IMG/VR virus record: IMGVR_UViG_3300006737_000144
Coordinates: 1 to 27,845 of that record
Length of the DNA stretch: 27,845 nt
From: a virus
Direction: 5' to 3' (one strand)
Position numbers and translations under genes: made by a program
Notes under the pieces: model-generated
Told to the model about the DNA's origin: nothing
The model's database searches: none
The model's input: the letters and a program-made list of their open reading frames with translations, nothing else
Part shown: positions 404 to 3,509 of the stretch, in pieces
Layout: each line of letters begins with the position of its first letter
Numbering within the stretch: position 1 is the stretch's first letter

Positions 404-717
404 TTTCTATTCATCCATGCAGTTGTTCCCATATAAGTTCCGACGATACCCGCCATGCTTATATAGAATAAATTTGAGACATCGGATAAAGCTGCTAAGC
501 GTTCTAAAGATACCAGGGGAGTGAACAACACAAAAGTAAACACGCCCATAGCAATAAGACTTGCAGTCGCCATATATCTCTGCGACCTAAGTTTTCTGCT
601 TTCCGCTTCTGCTTTATTAATTTCATTAATCGCCGATAACTCTTCGTCACTTACGGTTCCATCTCCATCAATGTCATACTTGGCATATCTCGATTTTGGT
701 TCCAGCTTCTTTGTCAT
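400..717 (-). CDS. EF-hand-loop membrane protein (105 aa)
   Basis: Small membrane protein of unknown function. Residues 15-26 form a canonical calcium-binding EF-hand loop (D15, D17, D19, T21, S23, E26, with G20 at the usual glycine). A charged linker and two hydrophobic segments follow, at about 49-69 and 83-102. The topology therefore suggests a soluble N-terminal calcium-binding head and two membrane helices. The ATG follows the stop of the 82-aa gene directly (TAAATG) and also overlaps the stop of the 50-aa gene (ATGA). Its own stop overlaps the holin start. Similar proteins occur beside holins in marine phages, from memory. A role as a regulatory partner of the holin is inference only. 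Confidence 0.75.
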   Translation of the reverse strand: MTKKLEPKSRYAKYDIDGDGTVSDEELSAINEINKAEAESRKLRSQRYMATASLIAMGVFTFVLFTPLVSLERLAALSDVSNLFYISMAGIVGTYMGTTAWMNRK

Positions 718-866
718 TTACTCTTCTTTCGGACAGGCTTCTTTTTGGACTGTGATAACTTTGGTCGTCCCCGCTTCCGTGATGTAGATGCAGTACCACT
801 CATTGAGGGATCTTCCTGCTGCTTTCTTCCGAACTCTGTTAACCAGCTTATAATTCGATGTATCAT
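714..866 (-). CDS. Small basic protein with RGRP (AT-hook-like) motif, overlapping in a second frame (50 aa)
   Basis: Short gene read in a different frame inside the 82-aa gene at 718-966. It starts at an ATG preceded by GGAG with 7 nt spacing, an excellent ribosome binding site, and its stop overlaps the start of the EF-hand gene as ATGA. The N-terminus is a short amphipathic stretch (MIHRIISWLTEFGRKQ). The C-terminal half is strongly basic, with KRGRPKL resembling an AT-hook and a Lys/Arg-rich tail. The frame stays open further upstream to 947, but only the 866 start has a good binding site. Both overlapping frames look like real proteins. The function is unknown: nucleic-acid binding is suggested by charge, while membrane association during lysis is suggested by context. 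Confidence 0.5.
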   Translation of the reverse strand: MIHRIISWLTEFGRKQQEDPSMSGTASTSRKRGRPKLSQSKKKPVRKKSK

Positions 867-966
867 TTTTAATCTCCGATTTAGTTTGTAACGGTGAGAT
901 ACACAATGCCAACCACGCAAAGCAGACCAGCACCGCCAACGATCCACAGAAGTATTTTAAGATCAT
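718..966 (-). CDS. Small protein with N-terminal membrane or signal segment (82 aa)
   Basis: Residues 1-23 are strongly hydrophobic (KYFCGSLAVLVCFAWLALC), consistent with a signal anchor or signal peptide. The rest is soluble, with a conserved-looking end (EWYCIYITEAGTTKVITV, then CPKE). Cysteines lie close to the hydrophobic segment, but no clean lipobox is present, so lipoprotein status is doubtful. The start overlaps the end of the 162-aa gene by 86 nt and has AGGAAAGAG as its ribosome binding site. The stop abuts the EF-hand gene. Similar short WYC...GTTKV proteins recur in marine phage lysis regions, from memory. A spanin-like role is possible but unproven. Its last two thirds also encode the 50-aa protein in another frame. 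Confidence 0.6.
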   Translation of the reverse strand: MILKYFCGSLAVLVCFAWLALCISPLQTKSEIKNDTSNYKLVNRVRKKAAGRSLNEWYCIYITEAGTTKVITVQKEACPKEE

Positions 967-1369
967 TCATTAACTCTTTCCTGCGCTTTACCTTGGCTGC
1001 CAGCCGTTTCTTTTCCGCATCCGCGTATTCTTTTATGCGCTTTTTTCGCTCGTCTAAAATGTCTTGAAAAGTAGAACTTCCAAATCTCAAATTTATTAAG
1101 GTTTTAATTTCTTGCAAACTTTCTTCAGCAATTCGTGCATCAATAGTTTCGGCTGCAATCGATTTGAGAGAGAAGGAACCTGGTGCAGCCTTTTTATTTT
1201 TAGCGCGATCTAATATAGACTTACTATCAAGCAACGTATCTATTTGTGAAGCAATATCACGAACATCGCGTGCGGTACTAATGCCACTTTTGATAGCATC
1301 TACTGCTCCTTTAAATGCTTTAAAAGCACTAGCAGCAGCCATTACTTCACCAACCCCAAACCCTAACAT
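881..1369 (-). CDS. C-terminally membrane-anchored coiled-coil protein (162 aa)
   Basis: Function not recognised with certainty. The first 60 residues are helical and small-residue rich (AAASAFKAFKGAVDAI), resembling conserved phage proteins found near holins. Residues about 95-135 are highly charged and likely a coiled coil (DERKKRIKEYADAEKKRL). Residues about 139-161 form one strong transmembrane helix (LLWIVGGAGLLCVVGIVYL). The start is supported by a GGGGGG tract 3 nt before the ATG; an internal Met at residue 10 has a weaker site. Its position between an XhlA-like protein and the overlapping small genes fits a lysis-accessory or i-spanin-like role. However, the membrane helix is C-terminal, whereas a classical Rz has it at the N-terminus. 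Confidence 0.65.
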   Translation of the reverse strand: MLGFGVGEVMAAASAFKAFKGAVDAIKSGISTARDVRDIASQIDTLLDSKSILDRAKNKKAAPGSFSLKSIAAETIDARIAEESLQEIKTLINLRFGSSTFQDILDERKKRIKEYADAEKKRLAAKVKRRKELMNDLKILLWIVGGAGLLCVVGIVYLTVTN

Positions 1370-1571: not shown

Positions 1572-2444
1572 CTATACAAAATATGTCACTTCGAGAGCCA
1601 TACCTTTATCACTACCACTTGACATCCAACCACGCATATTCCAGTTAGTAGTTCTACCATTTGAATCTCCCCAGTTATTTTGATTAGCGGGTTCACTATT
1701 ATCATCAGCAGAATAAATTTTACTACCATGCATAAGATAAATGTAAGATGTATTAGAAAACACATACGCAACACCAGAATGTTTTGCTCCAGTAGAAGCA
1801 TAAGCAGTTCCCATTCCAACTACATCAGAGGCAGTTCCAGTATTAACTGGAGTTATGGGCAATCCACTAATGTACCAAATATTAGTATTAGTATCTCCTT
1901 GACTACTACCAGTTAACCAACAAGTTACACTAACTAAATTTCCTACTCTTGCGTACCTTGCTCCATTGTCAATGCCAAATGAGCCGTTTGATGGAGCAGG
2001 TGTCCAAGAGCCACTAGCTTGAGTAACCGCACTAACATGAGCAGTAACAGATGAAGAACTTATCCGAGCATCAGCAAACGTACCAGATGTAATCTTTGAC
2101 GTTGCTAAAGCTGGAACATCACTAGCGGAAAGGGATAATCTAGCAGAAGGAACAGTACCACTTGTTAAATTGTCTGCTGACAATGCAGTTAAATCTACAT
2201 GCTGAGTTACAGAACCAGAAGATAATCTTGCATCCGCAAAAGTACCCGAAGTTATTTTAGATGTAGCTAAGTCTGGTATTCTTGCATCAGCAAAAGCTCC
2301 AGAAGTAATTTTAGATGTTGGTAAATCTGGTATTCTATCTGCACCTAAACTCCCAGAGGTAATCTTAGAAGCTGGCAAAGCTGGTATATCATCAGCAGTT
2401 AAGCCACCAGAAATTATATTTGCTAAGTCTCTTGCTTTGGTCAT
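1572..2444 (-). CDS. Tail fibre-like protein 3, repeat shaft and tip domain (290 aa)
   Basis: Probable receptor-binding or accessory fibre. The N-terminus (MTKARDLANIISGG) is a type often seen on marine phage fibres. Residues about 24-140 are shaft-like imperfect repeats built on SKITSGxFADAR(I/L) and NLTSGTVPSARL. Residues about 145-290 are a tip domain beginning GSWTP, then RYARVGNLVSVTC and WYISGLPIT, ending in LEVTYFV. The tip aligns by eye with the tip of the 218-aa fibre protein at 2853-3509, so the two are probable paralogues. The ATG overlaps the stop of the 133-aa gene (ATGA). The N-terminus lacks the T7 fibre adsorption domain, so attachment probably occurs through another fibre or the nozzle (inference). 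Confidence 0.75.
   Translation of the reverse strand: MTKARDLANIISGGLTADDIPALPASKITSGSLGADRIPDLPTSKITSGAFADARIPDLATSKITSGTFADARLSSGSVTQHVDLTALSADNLTSGTVPSARLSLSASDVPALATSKITSGTFADARISSSSVTAHVSAVTQASGSWTPAPSNGSFGIDNGARYARVGNLVSVTCWLTGSSQGDTNTNIWYISGLPITPVNTGTASDVVGMGTAYASTGAKHSGVAYVFSNTSYIYLMHGSKIYSADDNSEPANQNNWGDSNGRTTNWNMRGWMSSGSDKGMALEVTYFV
2198..2372 (-). repeat. About 54-bp tandem coding repeat in fibre 3 shaft
   Basis: About three in-frame units of 18 residues (SKITSG-x-x-ADAR-x-PDL-x-T) encode the shaft. The DNA units are clearly related; for example, the stretches around 2240-2280 and 2300-2335 share long runs, but they have diverged at many third codon positions. That fits old duplication kept at the protein level. 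Confidence 0.7.
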
Positions 2445-2842
2445 TTTGCTTTTTCCGCAGTTACATATTTAGCTTTTAAATCATCAGTAAAATGAGAGGT
2501 AATAGCAGTCTTTACATCAGCATCAACTTCACCAAAGACCCTAGTTAATTCTGCATCCCAATCAAAATCTTCTTCTTGCCAGCCTTTCGCAGCAACCTTA
2601 ACATCACCAACTTTTTTACCCTCTGGCAAAGTATCTCCAGGAATAAAAACATCACCAACCTTTTTGCCATCTGGTATAAGCCCATCATTTTGGTGCTGGG
2701 TAGTGTAAAGAACATCTCCTTGATATGTTGAACCCATGTCTTTCCAAACTTTCTTTGCCATAAAGGCACAAGAATGACCATCAGATATTCTTCTAACATC
2801 TACTGAAAATTCGTGTTTAGTTATTTCATATTTTGTAGCCAT
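2441..2842 (-). CDS. Hypothetical protein between fibre genes, possible fibre chaperone or linker (133 aa)
   Basis: Not recognised as a named family. It is a small soluble protein without a membrane segment. The middle holds two copies of a GKKVGDV motif (PDGKKVGDVFIPGDTLPEGKKVGDVKV region, about residues 57-83), and the C-terminal third is acidic and helical (WDAELTRVFGEVDADVKTAI). The gene lies between two paralogous fibre proteins and is coupled to the downstream one by an ATGA overlap. AGGAG lies 7 nt before its ATG. Small genes in this position in phages often act in fibre folding or attachment, and that is the only support for a chaperone role. It could equally be a minor structural subunit. 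Confidence 0.6.
   Translation of the reverse strand: MATKYEITKHEFSVDVRRISDGHSCAFMAKKVWKDMGSTYQGDVLYTTQHQNDGLIPDGKKVGDVFIPGDTLPEGKKVGDVKVAAKGWQEEDFDWDAELTRVFGEVDADVKTAITSHFTDDLKAKYVTAEKAK
2601..2674 (-). repeat. 48-bp-offset direct duplication inside the 133-aa gene
   Basis: Two 26-bp copies, 2601-2626 and 2649-2674, match at 23 of 26 bases (both begin acatcaccaac and end ctgg). They encode the two GKKVGDV motifs and lie 48 bp apart, in frame, which suggests a recent tandem duplication. Confidence 0.8.
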
Positions 2843-2852
2843 TTTTTCTCTC

Positions 2853-3509
2853 CTATGATGCAGTTATATAAGTACATTCAGCATAAAAATATCTATATTC
2901 AGTTCCTAGATAACTAGGTTGTATCATTTTGCCTTTTGTCCACAAACCCCCTAATGAGTTGTGTTCATTAAGAACCCTCTGCCCATTATAATCCGACATA
3001 AAATCCAAAGTAGTTGAATTTGCCATAACCATAGTTTGACCTTGGTCATAAGACCCATGAAAAGAACCTTGCCCAATAGGACTACCACTATTCCAAGAAG
3101 TAAAAGGCAAGCCAGTCATTTGACAGGCATCATCACCACTACCAGAACTGCTTGTCCATTGGAAGTAACAACTAACATGGCATATTCTTCCAACTTTAAC
3201 ATATTTAGCTTGATGAAAATTCCACCCATGAAAATTAATACTTGGCGACCAAGAGCCAACAGAAGATGCTACTGACATACTTGTTAGGTTTGCTCCGCTA
3301 ACTGCTGGTAAGGTAGCTGGAAATCTAGCATCTGGCATTGTCCCACTCGTTAGGTTTGATGCTGATAAGTTAGATAGGTCAACGTGTTGTGTTACTGACG
3401 AACTTGATAGCCGAGCATCAGCGAAAGTTCCACTTGAAATAGCAGACGTTGGAATACCTGTTACATTTGCACCACTAAAATTATATCTATTTCCTTCGTA
3501 TGTACTCAT
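2853..3509 (-). CDS. Tail fibre-like protein 2, short shaft and tip domain (218 aa)
   Basis: Probable fibre or receptor-binding protein. Residues about 10-75 are shaft-like, with ISSGTFADARLSSSSVTQHVDL and NLTSGTMPDAR. Related words occur in the 290-aa fibre and at the C-terminal end of the main fibre. The tip begins near residue 85 (SVGSWSPSINF), continues YVKVGRICHVSCYF and QMTGLPF, and ends AECTYI. This order of motifs parallels the tip of the protein at 1572-2444. The ATG has GGAG with 7 nt spacing and follows the main fibre stop by one base. It carries no T7-type adsorption domain. The Trp- and Tyr-rich tip is typical of receptor-contact regions. Confidence 0.75.
   Translation of the reverse strand: MSTYEGNRYNFSGANVTGIPTSAISSGTFADARLSSSSVTQHVDLSNLSASNLTSGTMPDARFPATLPAVSGANLTSMSVASSVGSWSPSINFHGWNFHQAKYVKVGRICHVSCYFQWTSSSGSGDDACQMTGLPFTSWNSGSPIGQGSFHGSYDQGQTMVMANSTTLDFMSDYNGQRVLNEHNSLGGLWTKGKMIQPSYLGTEYRYFYAECTYITAS

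Follow-up and report, generated by a model that had tools for sequence, protein, structure and literature searches.

Overlapping phage genes, lysis genes among them, are of a known kind. Two-component Rz/Rz1 spanins are found in an embedded architecture in lambda and in an overlapped one in P2 (PMC6139136). A second group, the disruptins, is described for phages without spanins (PMC12819732), with phiKT as the archetype (Holt et al. 2022, cited therein).

Here we describe three overlapping genes (f0, f1 and f2) on the minus strand of a 27.8-kb record from a marine bacterial virus. Our window, the whole 27,845-nt stretch of DNA that was analysed, covers these genes and two that follow them, which encode an EF-hand protein and a 121-aa membrane protein. 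The portal protein of the window is about 53–57% identical to that of HTVC010P-kind pelagiphages. Like Rz and Rz1, f1 and f2 are small overlapping lysis-cassette genes that encode a membrane-anchored protein and a disordered small protein in different frames. They differ in sitting before the holin, in having a third gene, f0, in the overlap and in the predicted periplasmic part of f1, which is short and beta. The first-pass annotation of this DNA had doubted the fit to Rz/Rz1, and rightly so: we rejected a two-component spanin on the grounds that none of the three frames encodes a lipoprotein or contains a lipobox, and f2 has neither a cysteine nor a signal. A unimolecular spanin (N-terminal lipobox plus C-terminal transmembrane segment) was rejected as well, as the lipobox is absent and f0 has the C-terminal segment only.

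Like the disruptins, f2 is short and cationic, has a predicted amphipathic helix and comes from a phage without a detected spanin. It differs in being nested in another gene, in a charge that is not selected and in its conserved AT-hook core. As in other overprinted (de novo, out-of-frame) viral genes, f2 appears to have opened a new frame within an older gene, and its product is disordered and its distribution restricted, but here two consecutive overlaps form a tail-to-head chain and cover nearly all of the middle gene. What is new here is this three-gene chain with its putatively overprinted candidate AT-hook peptide. We read the locus as a genuine chain in which three genes overlap, staggered head to tail, at the start of a phage lysis cassette, and we lean towards the scheme of expression and function proposed below.

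Gene layout and expression signals

The first gene of the chain, f0, encodes 162 aa (positions 881–1369, minus strand, as for all cassette features below). The second, f1 (718–966), encodes 82 aa from an ATG to a TAA stop, which is included in the coordinates, and the third, f2 (714–866), encodes 50 aa from an ATG to a TGA stop. The first 86 nt of f1 double as f0 (881–966), and this single stretch is read in two frames as two different membrane helices, one at the C-terminus of f0 and the other at the N-terminus of f1. About 150 nt are common to f1 and f2. Counting both overlaps, all but 14 nt of f1 are double-coding. The 82-aa and 50-aa frames, their Shine–Dalgarno-like (SD-like) sites and their ends are all as the first-pass annotation had described. 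It had presented the overlap as one of two genes; both frames are present, but f0, which takes part in the overlap as well, had escaped it.

The start codon of f1 lies inside an Asn-Asp pair of f0 that is conserved in relatives, behind a purine-rich site; in the window this site is AGGAAAGAG (974–982), within f0 and 7 nt from the ATG. The f2 start follows the f0 stop (881–883 in the window) by about 10–15 nt. Just past that stop the window has GGAG (874–877), again with 7 nt spacing, and GGAG, GGGA or GAGG is found in all 24 sequences that we compared (see below), in which the start and stop positions of f2 are also fixed. At the downstream end, the f1 TAA directly abuts the ATG of the EF-hand gene (400–717) and the f2 TGA overlaps the same ATG, making a TAAATGA junction (714–720) in 24/24 sequences.

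These signals suggest that f1 would be translated by internal initiation from the SD-like site within f0, and that f2 would be started by ribosomes finishing f0 about 10–15 nt upstream. With the stop of f2 overlapping the next start, the simplest reading is that f0, f2 and the EF-hand gene may form a chain of coupled translation, while f1 is translated alongside.

Relatives and origin of f2

Profile searches found forty-four loci with f0, twenty-nine with f1 and twenty-five with f2. Our comparison set comprises the 24 distinct sequences that carry all three genes (the window and twenty-three relatives), which are related to one another and mosaic. Across this set f1 ranges from 81 to 86 aa and f2 from 50 to 53 aa, and f2 always ends 4 nt beyond f1. 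In one close relative, L002 (= L089), f1 is 74% and f2 70% identical to its counterpart in the window, and start and stop are unchanged. The window f0 is nearest to L087 (83%), its f1 and f2 to L089, so parts of the cassette have probably been swapped by recombination.

All f2 loci examined sit within f1, and none was found outside it. The reverse does not hold: f1 is found without f2 in two other lineages. In one (L101/L102 and L177) the f2 frame is interrupted by stops, and in the other (L109–L122) f1 is a longer, two-domain protein, the first part of which is matched by the short f1. A third arrangement occurs in other marine phages, where a single frame encodes a 232-aa protein that runs from an f0-like part through a membrane helix to a Cys-rich tail. 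f0 is homologous to the f0-like part of these proteins (E 3e-7), and their Cys-rich tail is homologous to the second domain of the long f1 (E 8e-14); compared directly, the short f1 and the fused tail gave no significant match. The 232-aa proteins are found in L015, L019, L030, L033, L046 and others, where they adjoin the EF-hand gene upstream. In L022 and L079 the Cys-rich tail is absent entirely. Two loci (L123 and L124) have an extra 42-aa lysine-rich ORF (MTKQLKNKLRKVAKGLNKASRTHAKQAKTIQSVLKKSKKKTK) just after f1/f2.

Because f1 has homologs without f2 and f2 is found only within f1, f1 is the older frame, and f2 was most likely born by overprinting on it. This direction is read from the distribution of homologs and not from a rooted tree. 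The f0 tree is poorly resolved and too mosaic for gains of f2 to be counted; on it f2 needs up to three changes, which is compatible with a single origin. With dozens of diverged relatives, a clear age order of the two frames and a footprint that can be measured in each, the locus is useful for studying gene birth by overprinting.

Phage isolates (Roseobacter phages CRP-2, CRP-4 and CRP-7, HMO-2011 and others) yielded f0-type proteins only, without f1 or f2. In HMO-2011 and CRP-4, small basic proteins come after f0. A search of 50,697 phage records gave no match to f2 and chance-level matches only to f1. Neither protein matched a family above threshold in Pfam, PHROGs or NCBIfam, and PHROGs gave no convincing match. 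With no phage-record match and no family threshold passed, f2 would probably be missed by annotation pipelines. A pattern search of host genomes (genome_contigs, 84,980 species) found no relatives of f0.

Selection in the overlapping frames

In ten sequences, recoding f1 at random with synonymous codons left the f2 frame open in just 2–10% of trials. The open f2 frame is thus more than expected by chance, since it is open in 24 distinct sequences, all sharing its start, end and sequence pattern. In ten representatives that have diverged in f0, f2 shows an identity of 0.614, compared with 0.315 under a null in which f1 alone is constrained (maximum 0.364 in 1,000 trials); the observed value lies about 21 standard deviations higher, with the caveats that the null takes sequences as independent and that f0 may predate the f1–f2 module in some pairs.

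Substitution rates point the same way. In the f1/f2 overlap, the rate of doubly non-synonymous change is 0.38 of the f1-synonymous rate (dNN/dSN) and 0.50 of the f2-synonymous rate (dNN/dNS; CI 0.33–0.70, from bootstraps that ignore ancestry), and the ten representatives lead to the same result. Non-overlapping controls (f0 and the next gene) have dNN/dNS of 0.81–1.35. Taken alone the f1/f2 value of dNN/dNS is modest, because f1 lineages that lack f2 give a baseline of 0.70 (0.47–1.07), with dNN/dSN 0.13. Diversity at codon positions 1, 2 and 3 is 0.10, 0.05 and 0.31 in these lineages and 0.24, 0.17 and 0.29 where f2 is present, so that the third-position excess is gone; synonymous change in f1 is about halved where f2 overlaps it. 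In the f0/f1 overlap the two ratios are 0.57 (dNN/dSN) and 0.63 (dNN/dNS).

Together these comparisons show purifying selection on both f1 and f2 in their overlap and, more weakly, on f0 and f1 in theirs. The first-pass annotation had proposed comparing how far each frame is constrained in homologous phages, and the comparison supports dual coding. It had also held that stops in one frame of close relatives would speak against two genes; we saw these only in the side lineages that lack f2, and both frames are intact in the 24 closest sequences. We regard both frames as real, being kept in 24 distinct sequences with selection in each and f2 identity far over the null, and on this comparative basis consider dual coding of f1 and f2 close to certain.

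The f0, f1 and f2 proteins

f0 has a charged, helical N-terminal part followed by a C-terminal membrane helix (RRKELMNDLKILLWIVGGAGLLCVVGIVYLTVTN). Positive charges precede the helix, so f0 should be oriented N-in. f1 combines an N-terminal membrane helix with a small three-stranded domain (AF2 model with helix 3–23 and strands 40–46, 57–62 and 68–73; low confidence, mean pLDDT 69). Set against the i-spanin pattern of an N-terminal transmembrane segment and a periplasmic domain, the model shows a helix at the N-terminus and a short domain of beta structure. A fold search with the model returned nothing informative. Two cysteines, C59 and C78, are invariant in the alignment of relatives. We infer an inner-membrane location for f0 and f1, with most of f0 in the cytoplasm. 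If f1 is N-in like f0, as we assume, its small domain would therefore be periplasmic, and it is probably disulfide-bonded. f1 shares a W-x-C-x-Y strand pattern with DUF7300 and with the Cys-rich tails of the 232-aa proteins, and the long versions of f1 carry the fused-type domain. The f1 of the window is shorter, however, and scores below the DUF7300 cut-off (18 bits; gathering score 27); a DUF7300 match of any score was found in four of the 24 members.

The AF2 model of f2 (low confidence) has a helix at residues 2–16 and a disordered basic tail. W8, L9 and F12 are conserved in the helix, which has a hydrophobic moment of 0.42–0.76, and the peptide has a net charge of +9 to +13. Random synonymous recoding of f1 yields the same charge, and we rejected cationic charge as a sign of f2 function. 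The tail holds KRGRPK, an AT-hook core with GRP between basic flanks. This motif is kept in 21 of the 24 sequences and lost in L087, L092 and L100, and so is not indispensable. Eight nucleotide versions encode it, overlapping nine different sequences of f1, and its chance given f1 is about 0.0005–0.004 per sequence. Ser/Thr positions of f2 are also under selection. Pfam AT_hook (PF02178) gave weak matches (E up to 1, best 0.037) in seven of twenty-two f2 members and none for the f2 of the window. Like proteins of the AT-hook family, f2 thus has a KRGRPK core in a disordered basic tail, but it differs in its single motif, weak Pfam scores and loss of the core in three members.

f2 would be a soluble or peripherally membrane-bound peptide. 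Because selection falls on KRGRPK, we favour a nucleic-acid-binding AT-hook over a generic cationic peptide, and tentatively propose that f2 may be a small AT-hook peptide that binds nucleic acid late in infection.

Lysis context

The first-pass annotation had placed these genes in a lysis cassette. The window itself stops short of any endolysin, but in one relative, L107, holin and endolysin genes lie directly downstream. The order there is f0, f1, f2, a 73-aa two-transmembrane protein with hydrophobic segments, a holin (phrog_3427, E 6e-29; PF11351, E 1e-19), an endolysin (GH108, PF05838, E 2e-22) and an integrase. In the window, the 121-aa membrane protein (38–403) belongs to phrog_2524 (E 3e-28), a family that also weakly matches the L107 holin, and is likely the product of a lysis-region gene. 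The EF-hand protein is weakly holin-like (GTA_holin_3TM, E 0.002, under the curated cut-off).

A lipobox scan of the window and of the 36-kb L107 contig turned up no credible spanin lipoprotein; the scan is crude, though it recovered the controls lambda Rz1 and T3 18.7, and the ends of the L107 contig may not be complete. The cassette bears on how phages with a holin and endolysin and no recognisable spanin open the outer membrane. It is conceivable, if rather improbable, that f0–f1–f2 is an undescribed spanin-replacing lysis module of a group of marine phages, with f2, its newest part, a peptide that originated within another gene of the lysis region and became fixed in the lysis programme.

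Alternative explanations

Two alternatives deny that one of the frames is a separate gene. One is that f2 is a chance open frame kept only through conservation of f1; in its favour, the f1 residues alone leave the f2 frame open with a probability of up to about 10% per sequence, and the resulting peptides would be about 40% identical to the actual f2. This reading is very hard to reconcile with the observed excess over the null, the halving of f1 synonymous change, the start, SD and stop that are fixed in 24/24 sequences, and KRGRPK, which is fixed while the f1 residues under it vary; we give it almost no weight. f1, in turn, might be joined to f0 by a programmed +1 frameshift in their overlap, resembling the 232-aa proteins, where homologs of f0 and of the second domain of the long f1 share one frame with a membrane helix. 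Such a fusion seems quite improbable for a gene that has its own conserved ATG and SD-like site, usually with in-frame stops just ahead. In addition, f0 keeps the Asn-Asp pair containing that ATG, no slippery site is apparent by eye, and the short f1 does not significantly match the fused tail.

The others concern what f2 does. The main rival to a nucleic-acid-binding role is a disruptin-like peptide that breaks the outer membrane in place of spanins. The size, charge and amphipathic N-terminal helix of f2 would suit this role, as would its place just upstream of the holin and endolysin region in L107 and the failure to find a lipobox spanin, although that absence depends on the crude scan. 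However, the charge is imposed by f1, f2 has no export signal, and selection on KRGRPK and Ser/Thr is needless for a generic cationic peptide, so we judge a disruptin-like f2 unlikely. We have similar doubts about a holin regulator or membrane-peripheral lysis-timing peptide, in which the N-terminal helix would bind the membrane and the tail would contact phospholipids or a partner. The conserved W8, L9 and F12 are consistent with it, and TAAATGA couples f2 to the next gene, which encodes a membrane protein, but the conservation of KRGRPK is left unexplained and no homology to known antiholins was found in Pfam, PHROGs or NCBIfam.

Other genes of the region

The EF-hand gene joins an EF-hand loop (DIDGDGTVSDEE) to holin-like membrane helices, and its product is a candidate calcium-responsive lysis protein. 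At least 580 related stretches were found in viral contigs, in several gene contexts, and a relative is also present in Limnohabitans phage DC31 (L136). At the start of the cassette, an ORF at 1395–1556 encodes a protein of 53 aa that has a charged helix as well as a membrane helix at its C-terminus. It gave no convincing family match; by eye it has an XhlA-type look. Positions 1572–3509 encode tail-region proteins with repeated SKITSGTFADAR-like units that are common to the neighbouring genes.
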